From Gammaproteobacteria bacterium (GTDB taxonomy: Bacteria; Pseudomonadota; Gammaproteobacteria; Pseudomonadales; Azotimanducaceae), in NCBI GenBank assembly GCA_026708185.1, contig JAPOVK010000050.1, positions 1-64,000 on the forward strand: 64,000 nt of DNA, given 5' to 3'. The translations under genes were made by a program, and so were the position numbers. How positions within the stretch are numbered: position 1 is the stretch's first letter; every line of letters starts with the position of its first letter. The notes beneath the pieces were generated by a model. The model was not told the origin of the DNA. It made no database searches and saw only the letters and a program-made list of their open reading frames with translations. This document shows positions 16,845 through 27,396 of the stretch, piece by piece.

Positions 16845-18107
16845 TCACTCCTCGTTCGTTGGCAGGAAGTCGAATCGGGCGACCAACCGCCCGCCGACGT
16901 AAACAGCCAGCGCCGCACTGCCGGCCACGACAGACAGCAAGACCATTCGTCCCACGGGGCCGAACGATGGCGCACTGAATGAGACGAACAGGAATGCCGC
17001 GCAGACGAGTGCCAGCGAACCGAGCTGTGATGGCCGCTTCGCAGTGCGGGTCGGGCGGACGCTGCAGGCCACGATGAAGACGATCAGGCACGTGGCGCAG
17101 AGCAGCAGCGTCTCGTCGAACTGGTTTTCAAGCCCTGGCCTGGATGGCAACTGTGCCCCGAACAGGGCTTGCACGCCGACGAGGGCGACCGCCAACCCGA
17201 ATGTTGCCAACGTCACGATTACCATTCGAGCCGCGAATAGCCTGCCGAGGTCACGTCTTGAGTCCCCGATGCCAAGTTGCCAGGCCGTAGGCAGCCACGC
17301 CGCGGCCACCTTGAGGACCATGAGCGGCGTCAACGAAGCGACAAAGGTGATTATGCCGACGGCCACCGCGGCGAACTCAGCCCAGCTTTCGAACGGGATG
17401 TACGCTCCCACGGCGGTACTCGCCGTAATCCCGATCAGGATCGCCTCGGCAATCCGCATCGGAGGCTGCCCGAAGCCAAGCAAGAAGGTTAGCCCCGCCA
17501 CGCGCGGGTGGAAGTAGCGCCACCGCAACGCGTTGTCGGTGTGCGGTCGCGTCGGCGTGCCGAGCCGCTTTCTCAGCAAGGCAGCGGCCACGATGGCCAG
17601 TACCAATGCAGCCGACTGTGCGGCCGGCAGGGTCACCGGATGCCATGGGATCACGCCCCGATGGTCCGTGATGAGCGTGACGAAAGCGATGGAGACGAGG
17701 GTTATCTTGCCGAACTGCCAAGTGCTACGCCTTCGAGAATAGGTGAAGCAGAGGACGAGGATCGTCCCGCCTAGCGCCGCGAGGCCGAAGGCTGGCGCGA
17801 CATTACCGGCCAAGCCGGAGATCGCGGTCGCCAGGGCCACGACGCCCCACACGATGCCAAGGGCGACCGCCCACGCGGCCGTTGCGTAGCCCGGAACCAG
17901 CGTGGTGGCGTCCCATTGCCGGGCACGACGCAAGCAATCGCTTGCCCAAAGGACGGCGGCGACCGTCGTGCAGATAATGCCACCGTTTCCGGCAGGGAAG
18001 CCGGATGGCGTGGGCAGGAGCGCGAAGATGAGCCCAATGGCCACCAGGATCCAGAGGCCCAAGAAGCGCGCGCTCGGAAACAGGAGCGAGATCGAGGGTA
18101 CCGTCAT
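16845..18107 (-). CDS. ABC transporter membrane subunit (multi-TM)
   Basis: MTVPSISLLFPSARFLGLWILVAIGLIFALL; start overlaps the upstream ATPase stop; many TM segments. Confidence 0.7.
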   Translation of the reverse strand: MTVPSISLLFPSARFLGLWILVAIGLIFALLPTPSGFPAGNGGIICTTVAAVLWASDCLRRARQWDATTLVPGYATAAWAVALGIVWGVVALATAISGLAGNVAPAFGLAALGGTILVLCFTYSRRRSTWQFGKITLVSIAFVTLITDHRGVIPWHPVTLPAAQSAALVLAIVAAALLRKRLGTPTRPHTDNALRWRYFHPRVAGLTFLLGFGQPPMRIAEAILIGITASTAVGAYIPFESWAEFAAVAVGIITFVASLTPLMVLKVAAAWLPTAWQLGIGDSRRDLGRLFAARMVIVTLATFGLAVALVGVQALFGAQLPSRPGLENQFDETLLLCATCLIVFIVACSVRPTRTAKRPSQLGSLALVCAAFLFVSFSAPSFGPVGRMVLLSVVAGSAALAVYVGGRLVARFDFLPTNEE

Positions 18108-18938
18108 GCCGTCACCCCGACGAACAGATCCTCGAGGGTCGTCTCTTCGACGCGACTGTTCGGCGCCAATCCGCACGCTTCGGGATCCCAGACCCAGAAG
18201 CGGTCCCTCTGTCGGCCGAGCACGTGGCGCTCGGGCGGGTACGGCGGAGTGGGCACTGTCACCGCCCGGACCCGCTCTTTGATCTCGTCGAGCGCGGTGT
18301 GGCAGAGGACGCGGCCGTTGTGCAGGATCGCGACGTGGGAGGAGACCCGTTCGATGTCGCTGGTGATGTGGCTGGAAAGCAGGGTCGTCTGGCCCTGGTC
18401 GACGTTCACCTCCATCAAGGTCTTCAGGAAGTCCCGGCGCGCTGCCGGGTCGAGGCTCGCCACCGGCTCGTCGAGAATCAGGAGGTCGGGCCGGTGGCCG
18501 ATGGCGAGGAGGATGGCGACCTTCTGCTGATCGCCCGGCGAGAGGGTGGCGATCTTGCGGTTCCTGAGCCGCCACTCGCGGCGCAAGCGGGACACCAGTT
18601 CCCCGTCCCAGCCGTCCTTGTAGTGGCGTGCCACGAAGTCGACGCAGGCGTCGACGGTCATCCAGCCGAAGCTCTCGAACTGCTGTGGCACGTAGCCGAT
18701 GCGTTTGCGAACGCGCGATGGCGAATTCCACGACGGTGCCCCGAATGCCTCGGCCGTGCCGGCATCGGCTTTCATGAGCCCGAGCGCGACGCGCATGAGC
18801 GTCGTCTTGCCGCTGCCGTTGCGGCCGAGGAGCCCCGTGACGGTTCCCGGTTCGAGGTCGAGATCGACGCCCCTGAGCACGGTGTCCCGGCCGTACTTCA
18901 GGTGTACGCCACCCAGGTTGAGGGGCGATACGGTCATG
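18104..18938 (-). CDS. ABC transporter ATP-binding protein
   Basis: GLLGRNGSGKTTLMRVALGL; TLSPGDQQKVAILLAIG; LLILDEPVASLDP. Confidence 0.95.
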
Positions 18939-19290
18939 TTTCCTCCCAAATTCTCTCGATTTGTGCGATCACGTCGGCGCGCGACATGCCGAGTTCCTTG
19001 GCGTTGGCGACGAGCGCCTGCACCTCCGGTTCCATGGCCAGGGCGCGATCCGCGCCGCACTTGGCGACGACCATGCCGATGCCGGCTCGGCGAACGACGA
19101 TTCCTGCTTGATCGAGCATGGAATACGCCTTGGAGACGGTCATCGGGTTGATTCCAAGGTCCGTTGCGATGGCCCGCACGGAAGGCAGCTTGTCGCCGGG
19201 ACCAAGCGCTCCGGTGGCCACCAGGCGCCTCGTCTGGTCGACGATTTGCCGATAGATCGGCACCCCGGACGATGGATTCAGCAAGAACAC
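18934..19290 (-). CDS. GntR family regulator (YtrA/YhcF-like); start moved to GTG at 19290
   Basis: VFLLNPSSGVPIYRQIVDQTRRLVATGALGPGDKLPSVRAIATDLGINPMTVSKAYSMLD; AGGAAG Shine-Dalgarno-like box before the GTG. Confidence 0.88.
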   Translation of the reverse strand: MFLLNPSSGVPIYRQIVDQTRRLVATGALGPGDKLPSVRAIATDLGINPMTVSKAYSMLDQAGIVVRRAGIGMVVAKCGADRALAMEPEVQALVANAKELGMSRADVIAQIERIWEET

Positions 19291-19300
19291 GCGGCTTCCT

Positions 19301-19328
19301 ATGTGTATTAGGATGAAATAATACACAT
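19301..19328. promoter_or_regulatory. Probable operator of the adjacent GntR regulator
   Basis: ATGTGTATTA (19301-19310) - 8 nt - TAATACACAT (19319-19328), perfect inverted repeat. Confidence 0.8.
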
Positions 19329-19424: not shown

Positions 19425-22400
19425 ATGGGTCGATTGATGGTGTTCGCCTATTCCCCCCTCGCCGGCGTGGCGCTGGCGGAATTGCGGTCGCTGCGCCGCT
19501 CCGTCCGAACCTGGGTCTTCCTCGGCATCGGCATCGCCGTTGCGTTCACGGCGTACGGCTACTACAGCTACCTGCGTGACGCCTTCGCATTCAACCCGAA
19601 CGCGGGCTTCATGTCGCCCCGTTACACGTCCGCGTATTTCACGATCTACCTGTTGTGGCTCTTCATGGCCGCATTGGTCTTCCTTGCGTTCGACGGGCGT
19701 GGCCGCGACGAAAGGGAGGGGATTGCCGAGGTTGTCGATTCGCGACCGGTGCCGAACCTGGGCTTGTTGACCGGTCGGCTCGTCGCGGTCGTTTTCGTCG
19801 CGCTCGTCCCGCTGCTGGCCGGTCAGGTCCTGATCCAGGCTGTCGGCTTCGTCGCCCAGGCGAGCGGCTTCGACATGCTCGGACCCGTACAGGGCGTATC
19901 GCTCGCCACGTTCGTCCTGGTCGATGCGCTGCCCGCCCTGATCCTCTGGTCGGCCTTCGTGCTGTTCCTTGCGGCAGGCCTCAAGAACCGGCTGGCGGTG
20001 GCCGGCGTTGCCCTCGGGCTGTTGGGTGCGCACATGTGGGCGTTCGCGCTCGTCCCGAGCTACCTGCTCCCGGCCCTGTCGCCGATGACGGTTCACGACA
20101 TCTGGGCATCCGACTTGGCACCGCGGTTCCCGACCGCCGAGAGCTACTCGCAGCGCGTGTCGGAGGTGCTAGTGGCTGTTGGCTTTGTGCTCTTCGCGGC
20201 CAGCGTTTCGCGGCGCAAGGACGGGGCGTCGCGCGGTCGGCAGTTCGGCGTCGGCGTGATCGCCGTTGCCTTGGGAGTCGGCGGCATCGCGACGATCGCC
20301 TACCGCGCGCACGCGAACCTGGTCGAGCGTGGGGAGTGGTTGCAGACCCACGAGGCCGCCGCCGAGACGGGCGAGCCCGAGGCCAATTTGGAGCGCGTAC
20401 GGGCGGTGTTGTCCCTCGACCCGGGCGAGTCCCTGCAACTCGATGCGACGCTGCACATCCGGTCGGGCACGGGTTCGGCGGACATGACGTTCAGTCTGAA
20501 TCCCGGTTTGACCATAGAGGAGCTCACCGTGGACGGCGCTGCCGCGACCTACACGTTCGAGCATGGCCTTCTGACCGTTGCCATGCCGCCGTCGCCTGCC
20601 GGACGCGATGCACGCGTGCTGGCCATTCGCGCCGCGGGATTGCCTGACGCCGACTTCGCCTACCTGGACAGCGCCGTCGACTGGCGTCGCCGGTCGAGCC
20701 GCAACGGCATCCTGTGGTTGGGGACGCAGTCGGGCATCTTCGAGCGCCGATACGTGGCGCTGATGCCGGGCCAGCACTGGCTTCCCGCGCTAGGGGCCAA
20801 TCTCGAGGACAACGCCGGCCGGGATCCGTTCATGCTGGACCTCGAGGTGCGCGTGCCGGAGGCGTGGCTGGTCGCGGCGCCGGGACATCGGGAGACACTG
20901 AGCCCGGGGACATTCCGGTTCCAGCCGGTGGCGCCGGTCGCCCAGGTCGCGGTGTTCGCCGCTCCGTTCGTCCGCCGCGCGGCTACCGTCGCCGGCGTCG
21001 AGGTGGAACTGCTGTTGCACCCTGGCCACACAGACAACATCGATGACTTGGCGCCGGTTGCGGCCCCTCTCAAGGACCATCTCGCCGAGGCCTTGACGCA
21101 GGCGGAGGATCTCGGCGTGCCGTACCCGTACCGGACGTTGGTGGGCGTCGAAGTGCCGGGTCACCTGCGCGGATACGGGGGCGGCTGGGCGCTGGACACG
21201 GTGATGGGTTTGCCGGGCATGGTACTGGTCCGGGAGCACGGCATCCCCCAAGCCCGACTGCCGGTGTATTACCGGCCGTTGTCGGCGGATGGGGCGGACC
21301 AGAGGGCGGCCATGTATCTGATCGCGATGCTCTCCGTGTCGATCCGGGATGACAATGTTGTCCGCGGCATCGCGAGGAACATGTCGGTGTTCCAGGCCGC
21401 GGCCCGTGGGCGGGGCGCCACGGCGCTGGATTTCGTCGTCGAGACGCTTGCGCTGAAGCTACTTGGCGACACAGAGGGCGAGGTTGCGACCGCGCACAGC
21501 AACGACCTTGACGCCGGCTTCGGCGCGACGGTGTCCGGCATGATCCGGGGACTCACGCCCTCCGAGCCACCGCGGAGCGCGTTTCAGTCGCTGTGGTATC
21601 CGGAGCCTTCCTGGCAGGCTGTGCGCACCGAGTCCCTCGCCAACCTCGTGGATTCCGATAGCCCGTTGCAAGCCCTGCGGGTCTTCGGTGTGAAAGGCGA
21701 TGCGGTGGCGAGGATGATCAGGGACGGAATCGGTCGGGAGCGGACAGGCGCGTTGTTGTCCATCCTGCGACAACGGCATGGCGACGGCTACGATGCGGCC
21801 GACTTCGCCGCAGCCGCCCGGGAAGCCGATGCCGACCTCGACGCACTGCTCGGAGACTGGCTCAACCAGGCCGGCCTGCCGGGTTTCCTCGCGTCGCCAG
21901 CGACGGTCTATCGCCTGAGGGATGATGCCGACGGTCAGCCGCGCTACCAGATTCGCCTTCACGTGCGCAACGACGAGCCCTATCCAGGCCTCGTGGCGCT
22001 GGCGCCGCACTTTTCCGGTGCAACCGGCGGTCGGGGGGATCCGGTTCCCATCCCGGGGCGGACCAGTGCCGAGCTTGGCTTGGTGGTCGCCCAGGCGCCA
22101 GAGCACTTCTGGCTGATGCCGTACCTGTCGCTGAACGGTTTCCCCGTCCCTGTGGCACTCCAGAACGACGATGCCGAGGGCGCTCGCGACGTCGCCCCCT
22201 TGGTCGGCGCGCGACCGAGCGACTGGGTGCCGCCGGTTCCCGATGGGATCATCGTTGACGACCTCGATTCTGGCTTCTCGGTCGTCCTCGGCGACGTCTC
22301 GCGGCTTGGCGGAGAGAGGTCACGGCAGCGGCCGGGGACGTCTGATCAGGACTTGCCACCGTACTCCGTGCGCCCAGGAACGTGGATTCGCGCGGCCATA

Positions 22401-22790
22401 CCCGGCGCCTGGGGAAAGTACCGGCGTACGACCGCTGGTGCGCTGCCGGGCGACCAGGGTGCCGTCGCGGTCTTCGAGGCCGAGTTGACCGAGGCCGGTC
22501 GCTGGCGTCTCGATTTCCACGTACCGGAGGCCGAAGTCCCGATGTCGTTCGGAAGCGCCCCGGCCCGATCCTGGCGCGTGTTCGGCGTGCTTGGGCCGAT
22601 GGCAATGCGCCTCGTGCTCGGTGACACCGGAACCCAGGTCGACTTCGACGCCGGCGCGGCAGAACCAGGCTGGAACAAGCTCGGCGAGTTCGAGATCGGC
22701 GATTCACGCGATGCACGCCTTGAGGTGTCGACCCGCACGCCAGGGGAAATGGTGGTCGCCGACGCGATCCGCTGGACGAAGGTTGAATAG
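19425..22790 (+). CDS. Giant ABC-2-type permease / M1-aminopeptidase-like / golvesin-like fusion without HEXXH
   Basis: Multi-TM N-terminus; PYPYRTLVGVEVPGHLRGYGGGWALDTVMGLPGMVLVREHG M1-like region; C-terminal LTEAGRWRLDFHVPEAE...WNKLGEFEIGDSRDARLEVSTRTPGEMVVADAIRW. Confidence 0.7.
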   Translation: MGRLMVFAYSPLAGVALAELRSLRRSVRTWVFLGIGIAVAFTAYGYYSYLRDAFAFNPNAGFMSPRYTSAYFTIYLLWLFMAALVFLAFDGRGRDEREGIAEVVDSRPVPNLGLLTGRLVAVVFVALVPLLAGQVLIQAVGFVAQASGFDMLGPVQGVSLATFVLVDALPALILWSAFVLFLAAGLKNRLAVAGVALGLLGAHMWAFALVPSYLLPALSPMTVHDIWASDLAPRFPTAESYSQRVSEVLVAVGFVLFAASVSRRKDGASRGRQFGVGVIAVALGVGGIATIAYRAHANLVERGEWLQTHEAAAETGEPEANLERVRAVLSLDPGESLQLDATLHIRSGTGSADMTFSLNPGLTIEELTVDGAAATYTFEHGLLTVAMPPSPAGRDARVLAIRAAGLPDADFAYLDSAVDWRRRSSRNGILWLGTQSGIFERRYVALMPGQHWLPALGANLEDNAGRDPFMLDLEVRVPEAWLVAAPGHRETLSPGTFRFQPVAPVAQVAVFAAPFVRRAATVAGVEVELLLHPGHTDNIDDLAPVAAPLKDHLAEALTQAEDLGVPYPYRTLVGVEVPGHLRGYGGGWALDTVMGLPGMVLVREHGIPQARLPVYYRPLSADGADQRAAMYLIAMLSVSIRDDNVVRGIARNMSVFQAAARGRGATALDFVVETLALKLLGDTEGEVATAHSNDLDAGFGATVSGMIRGLTPSEPPRSAFQSLWYPEPSWQAVRTESLANLVDSDSPLQALRVFGVKGDAVARMIRDGIGRERTGALLSILRQRHGDGYDAADFAAAAREADADLDALLGDWLNQAGLPGFLASPATVYRLRDDADGQPRYQIRLHVRNDEPYPGLVALAPHFSGATGGRGDPVPIPGRTSAELGLVVAQAPEHFWLMPYLSLNGFPVPVALQNDDAEGARDVAPLVGARPSDWVPPVPDGIIVDDLDSGFSVVLGDVSRLGGERSRQRPGTSDQDLPPYSVRPGTWIRAAIPGAWGKYRRTTAGALPGDQGAVAVFEAELTEAGRWRLDFHVPEAEVPMSFGSAPARSWRVFGVLGPMAMRLVLGDTGTQVDFDAGAAEPGWNKLGEFEIGDSRDARLEVSTRTPGEMVVADAIRWTKVE

Positions 22791-23020: not shown

Positions 23021-26000
23021 CTATTGCGGTAGGGGTTGGCGGGGCCTGGAGAGCAGGCGCTTGGCTAACTCCCTGACGGTCGTCGGGGCCCGCGCGATGG
23101 CCTGCATGTAGGGCTGATGCGGCAGCGCCAGCATGGCCGGGGTCGCGACCAGCGTGAGGAGCGTTGCGAAGGTCAGCCCGGAGACGATGGCCTGGGCCAG
23201 CGGTACCCAGAATCCGGAGAGCTGGCCACCGTAGATGATCGTGCGATTGATGAAGTCGATCGACAGGTGGCTGGCGAGCGGCAGCAGGCCGAACACCGTG
23301 GTCACCGTGGTGAGAAGCACGGGCCGGAAGCGCTGAGCGCCGGTGCGCACGATCAGCGAGATCTGGTCGAGTTCCGGGTGGCGTTTGCGGATGTGGTTAT
23401 AGGTGTCGATCAGCACGATGTTGTTGTTCACAACGATCCCCGCCAAGGCAACCACACCGACACCGGTCAGGATCGCGCTGAACGGCATGCGGGTGACCAG
23501 GAGGCCGATCAGCACACCGGCCGTCGACATGACGACCGCGATGAGGATCAACAGGCTCTGGTAGAGGCTGTTGAACTGGGTCACCAGCAGCACGAACATC
23601 AGCAGCAGGGACATGGTCATGGCCACGACGATGAAGGCGATGGACTCGGCCTGCTCCTCGTTGGCGCCACGGAAGGCAACATCGACGCGCGAGTCCAAGT
23701 CCGTCTGGTCGAGCCAGGCCTGGATTTCCTTCACCTTGTCGTCGGCGAGTACACCCGGGGCGACGTTGGCGCGAATGAACATGACGACGCGACCGTCGAT
23801 GCGCTCGATGCTGTCGAGGTTGGGAACCGCTTCGCGGCGAACGAAGTTGGAGATTGGCACCAGTCCCTTGGATGTCGTGATCCGCAAGTCGTCCAAGGCG
23901 CTCAAGCCCCGCGCACTGGGCGGGTAACGCACGCGGATGTCCACCGCGTCGTCGGCCGTGTCCGGCCGGTACTGGCCGACGAGGACGCCATTGGTCACGA
24001 GTTCGACAGCGCGACCCACGAGGGAGACGTCGGCGTTGTAGAGCGCCGCTTGCGCCCGGTCGACGCTGATCTGCCATTCGACGCCGGGCAGGGACCGCGT
24101 ATCCTCGATGTCGCGCAACCCCTCGACCTCGCTGTCCATGTAGTCCCGCACGCGCTTCACCACGGGCCCGATCAGGGTCTTGTCGTCCGCCGTGAACTGG
24201 ATCTGGACCGGCTTGCCGACGGGCGGCCCGTCCTCCTGCTTCTGAACGTCGACGCCGATGCCGACGAGGCTCGCCGTCCGCACCCGCACCTCCTCGAGGA
24301 TCTCGCGGCCGGTGAGCTCGCGCTCGAACTGCTCGTGCAACTCGATGAACATCGTGCCCACGGTGTCGGAGGCGTCGCTAGAACCACCGATCCCGGTGCC
24401 GCCGGAGCCGCCACCGGCTTGCACCCACGTGTTGACGCTCTTGATGCCGGGGATCTCCAGGATGCGTTGCTCCACCTCCCGGACGAGTGCGAATGTCTCG
24501 ACCGCCGCTAGGTTGCCGCGGGCGCGAACCGACACGCGAGCGTACGACGGGTCCGTGTCGGAGAAGAAGGTCATGCCGCGCCCGTACTCGCCGTACGCGA
24601 CGAAGGACGCAACCAGGATGGCGACCGTGGCCAGCACGGTGAGCCCGGCGTGTCGGCACGTCGTTCGCAGTAGACGTGCGTAGATCCCGGTGAAGCCTTG
24701 GAGCTGGGTTGGGTCCCCGTCCTCGAGCAACCTGAGCGTGCGTCGGGAGCGGTCGTTGTGCGGGCTCGGCTTGCCGAAGGTGGCGCCGACGGTCGGGCCG
24801 AAGACCAACGCGTAGAGCAGCGATCCCGTCAAGACGAAGAACACGGTGACGGGCAGGTAGCGCATGAACTTCCCGGACACACCGGGCCAGAACATCAGCG
24901 GCAGGAACGCCGCCAGCGTGGTCGCCACCGACGCCGCAACCGGCCAGAACATCCTTGTGGCCGAGTTGGCGTAGGCCTCGCGCGGCGACATGCCCTCGGC
25001 CATCTTGCGGTCGGCATACTCGGTGATCACGATCGCGCCGTCGATGAGCATGCCGAGGCCGAGCAGCATGCCGAACATGACCATGAAGTTGAACGTGTAG
25101 CCGAGGAGCCACACGAAGACCAGCGCGAAAAGGAACGATACGGGGATCGCCGCGCCCACGATCAGGCCGCTGCGCAGGCCGAGCGCCGCCACCACCAGCA
25201 CCATCACCATGGCGAGCGCGGTGACGATGTTGCCCTGCAGTTCGTTCACTTGGTCGCGTGCGAAGGGCGCCTGGTCCTGGGTGTAGAACAACTCGACGCG
25301 GCTCGGCAGTCGGTCGCGGTAGCTCTCGACGACGGCGCGCACCTGGGCAACCGTGTCGACGAGGTTCGCGTTCGCGCGCTTGGCGACGTCGAGGGAGATC
25401 GTGTCCTTGCCGTTCACCCGCGCGAAACGGTTGCGGTCCTTGAATGTCCGGCGGATATCGGCGATGTCGCTCAAGGTCACTACGGAGTCGCCGTTCGCCT
25501 TCACCGGCAAGTCGACGATGTCGGCCGCATCCTCGATGACGCTCGGCACCTTGACAGCCATGCGGCCCGCGCCCGTGTCGAGCGAACCGGCGGCGATCAA
25601 CCGGTTGTTGCGGACCACGGTGTTGAAGAGCTGCTCGCTGCCGACCTCGTAGGTCTCCATGGCGGCGGGGTCGATGACCACTTCGAGAAGCTCCTCGCGC
25701 TCGCCCTGCAGTTGGACCTCCAAGACGTCGGGCAAGGCCTTGATGTCATCGCGGAGCTCTTGCGCCAGGTTGTAGATCACGCGTTCGCGGACGCCGTCGC
25801 CGACCAGGTTGACTTGGATGATGGCGAAGCCGGAGGCGCTCATCTCGAGGATGAAGGGCTCTTCGGCGCTGGTCGGGAACCACGGCTTGGCGCGGTCGAC
25901 GGCGGCACGCACGTCGTTCAGGGCTTCGTCCAGGTCGTAGTCGGCGTCGAACTCCACCGACATCCGCGCCATGCCCTGGTAGGCGTAGGCGCGCACTTCC

Positions 26001-26239
26001 TCGACGCCTTCGACCGTGCGCATCTCCACTTCCAGCGGTTTGACGAGCAGGCGTTCGGCATCCTCCGGAGAGATGCCCTCGTGCGGCACCGAGACCATGA
26101 ACACCGGCACCTCGATGTTCGGCGACGACTCGATGGGGATCGCGATCCGCGCGGCGACGCCAGCGAAGACCACCATCATCATCAGCAGCAAGGTGGTCCG
26201 CGAGCGCTGAACCGCGGCGTCGATGAGGGGATTGGTCAT
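23021..26239 (-). CDS. Efflux RND transporter permease subunit
   Basis: VFAGVAARIAIPIESSPNIEVPVFMVSVPHEGISPEDAERLLVKPLE; GLGMLIDGAIVITEY; about 1,070 aa. Confidence 0.95.
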   Translation of the reverse strand: MTNPLIDAAVQRSRTTLLLMMMVVFAGVAARIAIPIESSPNIEVPVFMVSVPHEGISPEDAERLLVKPLEVEMRTVEGVEEVRAYAYQGMARMSVEFDADYDLDEALNDVRAAVDRAKPWFPTSAEEPFILEMSASGFAIIQVNLVGDGVRERVIYNLAQELRDDIKALPDVLEVQLQGEREELLEVVIDPAAMETYEVGSEQLFNTVVRNNRLIAAGSLDTGAGRMAVKVPSVIEDAADIVDLPVKANGDSVVTLSDIADIRRTFKDRNRFARVNGKDTISLDVAKRANANLVDTVAQVRAVVESYRDRLPSRVELFYTQDQAPFARDQVNELQGNIVTALAMVMVLVVAALGLRSGLIVGAAIPVSFLFALVFVWLLGYTFNFMVMFGMLLGLGMLIDGAIVITEYADRKMAEGMSPREAYANSATRMFWPVAASVATTLAAFLPLMFWPGVSGKFMRYLPVTVFFVLTGSLLYALVFGPTVGATFGKPSPHNDRSRRTLRLLEDGDPTQLQGFTGIYARLLRTTCRHAGLTVLATVAILVASFVAYGEYGRGMTFFSDTDPSYARVSVRARGNLAAVETFALVREVEQRILEIPGIKSVNTWVQAGGGSGGTGIGGSSDASDTVGTMFIELHEQFERELTGREILEEVRVRTASLVGIGVDVQKQEDGPPVGKPVQIQFTADDKTLIGPVVKRVRDYMDSEVEGLRDIEDTRSLPGVEWQISVDRAQAALYNADVSLVGRAVELVTNGVLVGQYRPDTADDAVDIRVRYPPSARGLSALDDLRITTSKGLVPISNFVRREAVPNLDSIERIDGRVVMFIRANVAPGVLADDKVKEIQAWLDQTDLDSRVDVAFRGANEEQAESIAFIVVAMTMSLLLMFVLLVTQFNSLYQSLLILIAVVMSTAGVLIGLLVTRMPFSAILTGVGVVALAGIVVNNNIVLIDTYNHIRKRHPELDQISLIVRTGAQRFRPVLLTTVTTVFGLLPLASHLSIDFINRTIIYGGQLSGFWVPLAQAIVSGLTFATLLTLVATPAMLALPHQPYMQAIARAPTTVRELAKRLLSRPRQPLPQ

Positions 26240-27396
26240 GAAGGACCGGCGGCTGCGCCTTCTCCGTGCGCGAGTATGGGGAGCTCGTCGGGACTGCCGT
26301 CGGCGCCGGGTGCCTGCATCTCCACAGCGACCCGTTGCCCCGCAACGACGTACTCTTGGCCGACGGTGATCAGTGTGGTCTCCCACGGCAGCCCGGTGAC
26401 CCAGGCACCATCGTGTTCGTCGGCCACCACGTTGACGTGCTGAAAGCGGACCCGCTGGTCGGCATCCACGATTCGCACGCCCAGACGGCCCTCGTCGTCG
26501 AGGGCGAACAGCGCCGGCGAGATCTTGTGCGCGAGCAGCTCGCCGACGCGGATATTGATTTCGGTGGTGACGCCGCTGCGCAACGCGTAGTCCGGGTTCG
26601 GCACGGTGATCTCGATGCGGTACGTCCGTGTCTCGGGCTCGGCCTGCTGGCCCACGAAGGAGATCGGCCCGGTCACTCCTGCGCCGGTCGCGAGTCTCCC
26701 CGTGGTGGGAGACCCGACCGATACGCGATAGACGTCCCGCTCGGCGATCTGGCCGACCAGCAGCATCGGGTCGAGATCGACGATGCGCGCGCAGGCCGTG
26801 CCGGATTGCGCATAGTCGCCGACTTCAAGCTCCACATCCTCGACGATGCCGTCGAAGGGTGCGCGGATGAAGGTCCGCTCGAGGTCGAGAGCCGCCGCTT
26901 CAAGCTGCGCCTGGGCCGTCGCGAGCCGTGCACGTGCCTGGGCGATTGCGGTCGCCGACTGAAAGCCCCGATCCTTGAGCTTCAGGCTGCCGAGGTACTC
27001 GAGTCGCGCTTGGTTGACGCCCTCCTTGCCCTGGGTGATACGGGCCTGGCGGTCTTCCACGGCGATTTGGCACAAGAGATCGCCGGTCTCAACCCGGTCG
27101 CCGCGCTCGACCGGGCGGGCGACCACCCGGCCCCGCGTTTCCGCCTGCACGGCAACCGTGCGCTTGTTCTCCGTGCGACCGCGCACGGAGATCTGTTCGG
27201 GACGCGTGCGCGCGTGGATGACCTTTGCCCGGACGGCCGTCGGCGCCTTGTCGTCGGCGCTCCCGGCGAGCAGTGTATTGGCTTCGGCCAGCGACGGGTG
27301 TTCCGAGACACCTTCTTCTGCGGTCAGGAAACCCGACAGCAGCCAGATTGCGACCGCAACAGTGATGACGAGGGCGGTGATGTAAGTGCCGCGCAT
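26236..27396 (-). CDS. Efflux RND transporter periplasmic adaptor subunit
   Basis: VAVQAETRGRVVARPVERGDRVETGDLLCQI; FIRAPFDGIVEDVELEVGDYAQ; overlaps the RND start. Confidence 0.93.
   Translation of the reverse strand: MRGTYITALVITVAVAIWLLSGFLTAEEGVSEHPSLAEANTLLAGSADDKAPTAVRAKVIHARTRPEQISVRGRTENKRTVAVQAETRGRVVARPVERGDRVETGDLLCQIAVEDRQARITQGKEGVNQARLEYLGSLKLKDRGFQSATAIAQARARLATAQAQLEAAALDLERTFIRAPFDGIVEDVELEVGDYAQSGTACARIVDLDPMLLVGQIAERDVYRVSVGSPTTGRLATGAGVTGPISFVGQQAEPETRTYRIEITVPNPDYALRSGVTTEINIRVGELLAHKISPALFALDDEGRLGVRIVDADQRVRFQHVNVVADEHDGAWVTGLPWETTLITVGQEYVVAGQRVAVEMQAPGADGSPDELPILAHGEGAAAGPS

Follow-up and report, generated by a model that had tools for sequence, protein, structure and literature searches.

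The window analyzed here, a stretch of 64,000 nucleotides of gammaproteobacterial DNA, encodes a 1121-amino-acid (aa) protein in which an ABC-2 permease half is followed by an M1 aminopeptidase-like part that lacks its catalytic residues and by a golvesin-like C-terminal domain (Table 1). The protein belongs to a family that has expanded strongly, occurs in several species in an operon with an ABC ATPase and an MFP-RND pump, and is under purifying selection. The reading that we favor, and hold to be rather probable, is that these proteins are ABC-2 permeases joined to a cargo-binding periplasmic pseudopeptidase and were ancestrally encoded beside the MFP-RND pump; the substrate and its transport are what we infer.

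Table 1. Features of the fusion gene and its neighbors in the window
Feature	Position	Strand	Basis	Remark
Fusion protein: ABC-2 permease half, inactive M1-like part, golvesin-like domain	19425..22790	+	ORF, AlphaFold2 model, Foldseek	1121 aa
Elbow helix and seven TM helices	19425..20369	+	AlphaFold2 model; alignment with second permease half of ABC-2/M1 fusions	Residues 1-315
Predicted cytoplasmic coupling segment	19689-19781	+	Model; conserved	Residues 89-119
M1 aminopeptidase-like domains I-III without HEXXH	20370..22199	+	Two models; Foldseek; alignment column counts	Residues 316-925
Golvesin-like C-terminal domain	22200..22787	+	Pfam; beta-rich in model	Residues 926-1121
GntR-family regulator	18934..19326	-		Divergent; candidate member of the system only
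ABC ATPase	18104..18937	-		277 aa; divergent; possible but unproven partner
Multi-TM membrane protein	16845..18107	-		420 aa; overlaps ATPase gene; no Pfam match
AcrB-type RND	23021-26386	-		Convergent to ORF
HlyD/CusB-type MFP	26236-27396	-		Convergent to ORF

The 1121-aa ORF is real, and its orthologue in a sister species is 90% identical. An AlphaFold2 model of the full protein, computed from an alignment of 59 relatives, had a pLDDT of 86.5 and a pTM of 0.85. As the preliminary description had proposed, the N-terminal part is a multi-TM region, and in the model it runs from an elbow helix through TM1 (27-53), TM2 (65-88), cytoplasmic helices (91-106), TM3 (111-147), TM4 (157-185), TM5 (189-209), and a re-entrant helix to TM6 (238-261). 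This is the six-TM ABC-2 topology with its coupling helix, to which an extra TM7 (270-314) is added; by topology, TM7 should place the rest of the protein in the periplasm. Matches of relatives to the Pfam model ABC2_membrane were weak and under the cut-off.

The M1-like nature of the middle region, also suggested in that description, was borne out by two models and two fold searches. When the full model was compared to the PDB with Foldseek, all of the top 50 matches were M1 enzymes (best E, 2.6e-18). Residues 316-925 folded alone (pLDDT 82.8) again retrieved M1 enzymes (best E, 3.5e-23; TM score by query, 0.50 to 0.58), and beta domain I, thermolysin-like domain II, and beta domain III are all present. 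The rmsd of the superposition on M1 enzymes is high (about 9 A), indicating that the domains are differently arranged. By sequence, the catalytic subdomain taken alone matched weakly, the Pfam (PF01433) and NCBIfam M1 models had no match in the window protein or in five relatives scanned whole, and NCBIfam as a whole gave no match to the 1121-aa protein. A PDB sequence search with the window protein returned nothing and thus missed the M1 part, a PADLOC search was equally empty, and the only match of note in BFVD was a Tupanvirus M1-like protein.

Of the profile searches suggested by the preliminary description, that for M1 gave no match and that for golvesin gave one under the cut-off. PF25275 (Golvesin_C), the only Pfam model to match the window copy, aligned with its residues 1071-1118 at an E value of 1.4e-4, scoring 22.3 bits where the cut-off is 31.6 bits, and passed the cut-off in paralogues and a distant relative (L010, L012, and L110; E, 1.1e-9, 2e-10, and 2e-11). 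The golvesin-like C terminus claimed earlier is above threshold in these relatives and sub-threshold in the window copy itself. This domain takes the position that helical domain IV has in PepN-type enzymes.

HEXXH is absent from the whole window protein, in agreement with the earlier observation, and none of 62 full-length relatives has a HEXXH, or a HEXXH-(18 or 19)-E zinc site, in its M1-like part. Around residues 624-653, where the HEXXH helix is expected, no His or Glu conservation fits a metal site, and column counts in the alignment show that the third zinc ligand, a Glu, is not conserved either. Near the place of the catalytic Tyr, 42 of 59 sequences have Leu, and YGGGW stands in place of GxMEN, the exact alignment at both places being uncertain. 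HE..H strings were found at residues 300-310 in three copies, where they fall in the linker that follows TM7 and were taken as chance, and in the split copy L070, where the string falls outside the site.

The nearest outgroup consists of ABC-2 permease/M1 peptidase fusions, found in the same and in other bacterial families; the existence of such fusions, asserted in the preliminary description, is established by nine distinct loci (L104-L109 and L117-L119), all of which keep HExAHQWW. Profile-profile comparison of the zinc-less family with these fusions gave a probability of 98.7% (E, 2e-16) over 743 columns and paired the family with the second permease half and the M1 part. Like the family, the fusions have an ABC-2 permease half followed by an M1 part, and an ABC ATPase gene adjoins those copies whose surroundings were read. 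However, the fusions have two permease halves, the zinc motif, and no golvesin-like part, whereas the zinc-less family has one permease half, no zinc site, a golvesin-like C terminus, many copies, and, in its operon form, MFP-RND neighbors. One genome (G015) contains both. When the fusions were used to root a FastTree tree, the zinc-less family came out as a single group at the end of a long branch, with ATPase-linked copies scattered through the group. Alignment to the fusions, as the preliminary description had advised, places the loss of zinc ligands across the whole clade. There is good support for the claim that the peptidase fold is catalytically dead: the fold is evident by structure, and zinc ligands and catalytic Tyr are gone clade-wide and kept in the outgroup.

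In the window genome, which comprises 5.13 Mb in 65 contigs, 12 full-length copies are intact. They are 37 to 44% identical to the window copy; contig C3 carries three of them in tandem, and C61 carries two. Matches were found in all 16 genomes of the genus, at 1 to about 20 places per genome among the matches listed, fragments included; sister species reach about 20 copies, again among the matches listed, and some genomes of the same bacterial family have 1 to 4 matches. Outside the window genome, only one of the 368 genomes sampled from the class had a full-length match (2 of 53 genomes in the bacterial family of that outlier), as did none of the 398 genomes of the phylum sample. Almost all of the other sampled Proteobacteria lack the zinc-less fusion family. 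The MAG Gammaproteobacteria bacterium isolate COS4_bin_44 is the nearest named record, and a contig collection scanned with the window protein yielded only the close orthologue.

In its operon form, the family is encoded in the order ABC ATPase, zinc-less fusion protein (one or two copies), HlyD/CusB-type MFP, and AcrB-type RND. This operon is complete in six species (G005, G010, G015, G021, G022, and G370, of which G370 belongs to a different bacterial family), and parts of it can be seen at contig ends in further genomes; a 4-base overlap between the ATPase gene and the permease gene is frequent. Most copies, the window copy included, have no linked same-strand ATPase, and the window copy sits outside the operon. 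The preliminary description had the protein coupled to an ABC system. Gene linkage supports this for the family, as the ATPase gene abuts or overlaps the fusion gene in several species; for the window copy, the coupling is putative, its sole nearby ATPase gene being divergent and part of a GntR-ATPase-permease operon. The overlapping genes of that operon look like a self-contained ABC system, the 420-aa membrane protein probably being the ATPase's own permease. Because it is divergent and has its own permease, we did not accept this operon as the cognate system; likewise, the convergent RND and MFP genes were rejected as partners since the RND is of a different kind from that of the family's operon. 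Both flanking gene sets are kept in the sister species G007 (L039).

Computation shows the order of the domains, the predicted M1 fold, the missing catalytic residues, the expansion of the family, its operon, and purifying selection, and these features suggest the following scheme. The family probably arose from ABC-2 permease/M1 peptidase fusions by losing the zinc site and gaining a golvesin-like domain. Each fusion protein would be an ABC-2 half-permease of the inner membrane with a large periplasmic part attached to its seventh TM, in which the old aminopeptidase cleft and the beta-rich C terminus would bind cargo and not cut it. In the ancestral operon, the ABC ATPase would drive the permease and the adjoining MFP-RND pump would move the cargo over the outer membrane. 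Expansion of the gene within one genus has produced up to about 20 divergent copies, most of which have no ATPase of their own; such copies, that of the window included, are probably served in trans by a shared ATPase and probably bind different things. In a more far-reaching proposal, which we consider rather unlikely, these lineage-specific permeases with their periplasmic pseudopeptidase domains would make up a diversified set of receptors for cargo, with about 20 in each genome, all served by a single ATPase and delivering into a joint ABC-RND export route.

About as doubtful is the alternative that the copies without an ATPase, including the window copy, have lost transport and serve as membrane-anchored periplasmic receptors or scaffolds, the permease being a mere anchor. 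Most copies do lack a linked ATPase, and expansion with a diverging soluble part recalls a repertoire of binding proteins. However, the predicted coupling segment is among the best-conserved parts also in these copies: its mean conservation in unlinked copies is 0.68, compared to 0.44 to 0.58 for the TM helices, and in ATPase-linked copies it is 0.75, again above the TM helices. Moreover, in pairwise Nei-Gojobori comparison of the window copy with its G007 orthologue, dN/dS was 0.18 in the permease, the lowest of all domains, 0.20 to 0.23 in the M1-like parts, and 0.26 in the golvesin-like domain. The overall value of 0.21 argues against decay as well. We consider it very unlikely that the family consists of decaying, functionless repeats, as three broken members in the window genome could imply: 12 copies there are intact and, of six pairs of matching copies from two species, five had a dN/dS of 0.13 to 0.26, the sixth (0.34) being of doubtful orthology. 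The broken members are a frame-split copy on C11 and a truncated copy and a fragment on C22 (L018:5013-8424, L017:4387-6963, and L019:4349-4783, all on the minus strand).

It is also very unlikely that the peptidase part remains active through an unusual metal site or other chemistry. Four polar residues of the M1-like part, E528, H535, E576, and E604, are nearly invariant and could speak for such activity, but H535 is the only near-invariant His, and its counterpart is invariant in the zinc-bearing fusions too. No replacement metal site, for which the preliminary description had left room, is thus evident from the sequences of the M1-like part across relatives; in addition, nothing like HEXXH-E is left, and the catalytic Tyr is mostly Leu.

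The favored reading, a permease with a cargo-binding pseudopeptidase, has partial counterparts among known systems. MacAB-TolC and other ABC exporters that work with an MFP likewise have a large periplasmic part and are encoded beside the MFP; the present family differs in its ABC-2-type permease, its unrelated periplasmic domain, and the RND pump in the same operon. With M1 aminopeptidases (PepN, ERAP1, IRAP, and tricorn factor F3) it shares the fold of domains I-III, while the zinc ligands, GxMEN, and catalytic Tyr are absent, a golvesin-like domain replaces helical domain IV, and attachment to the membrane is through a permease. Most known inactive M1 homologues are eukaryotic. In one of them, yeast Tma108, a substrate-pocket residue is needed for nascent-chain binding (PMC11266112). 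Tma108, which also retains the M1 fold in a noncatalytic role, may serve as a precedent in which an M1-type pocket binds a ligand and no catalysis is known; unlike the present family, it keeps nearly all active-site residues, is cytosolic, ribosome associated, and eukaryotic, and has no permease (PMC11266112). Our literature search, which covered mainly open-access papers, found no report of a clade of zinc-less ABC-2/M1 fusions that combines a golvesin-like end, a single permease half, RND/MFP partners, and a very high number of copies. A disabled M1 fold in up to about 20 copies points to a new use of an inactive enzyme fold. Here, a whole bacterial clade retains the M1 fold under selection minus its zinc site, joined to a transporter and in many divergent copies, and offers a natural series for how a peptidase turns into a binding module. 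The clade also bears on whether one ATPase can serve many permeases, and its operon suggests an ABC transporter and an RND pump acting on one cargo.

No common theme emerged among the neighbors of orphan copies (penicillin-amidase, hydrolase, and others). In two species, the gene upstream of a tandem set directly abuts its first copy (L009:1903-4818 and L051:2331-4790, both on the plus strand); that of L009 encodes a penicillin-amidase-type protein, and a dienelactone-hydrolase-type gene comes after the L009 set. Genes for proteins of 390 to 440 aa without a significant Pfam match lie directly upstream of orphan copies at L052:5124-6302 (-), L016:4548-5879 (-), and L073:3521-4807 (+). Finally, ordinary M1 enzymes are represented in the window genome by a single PepN-like protein (L120; G000:C30:29080-29712, minus strand), which carries HEYFH and GAMEN and is the sole PF01433 match there.
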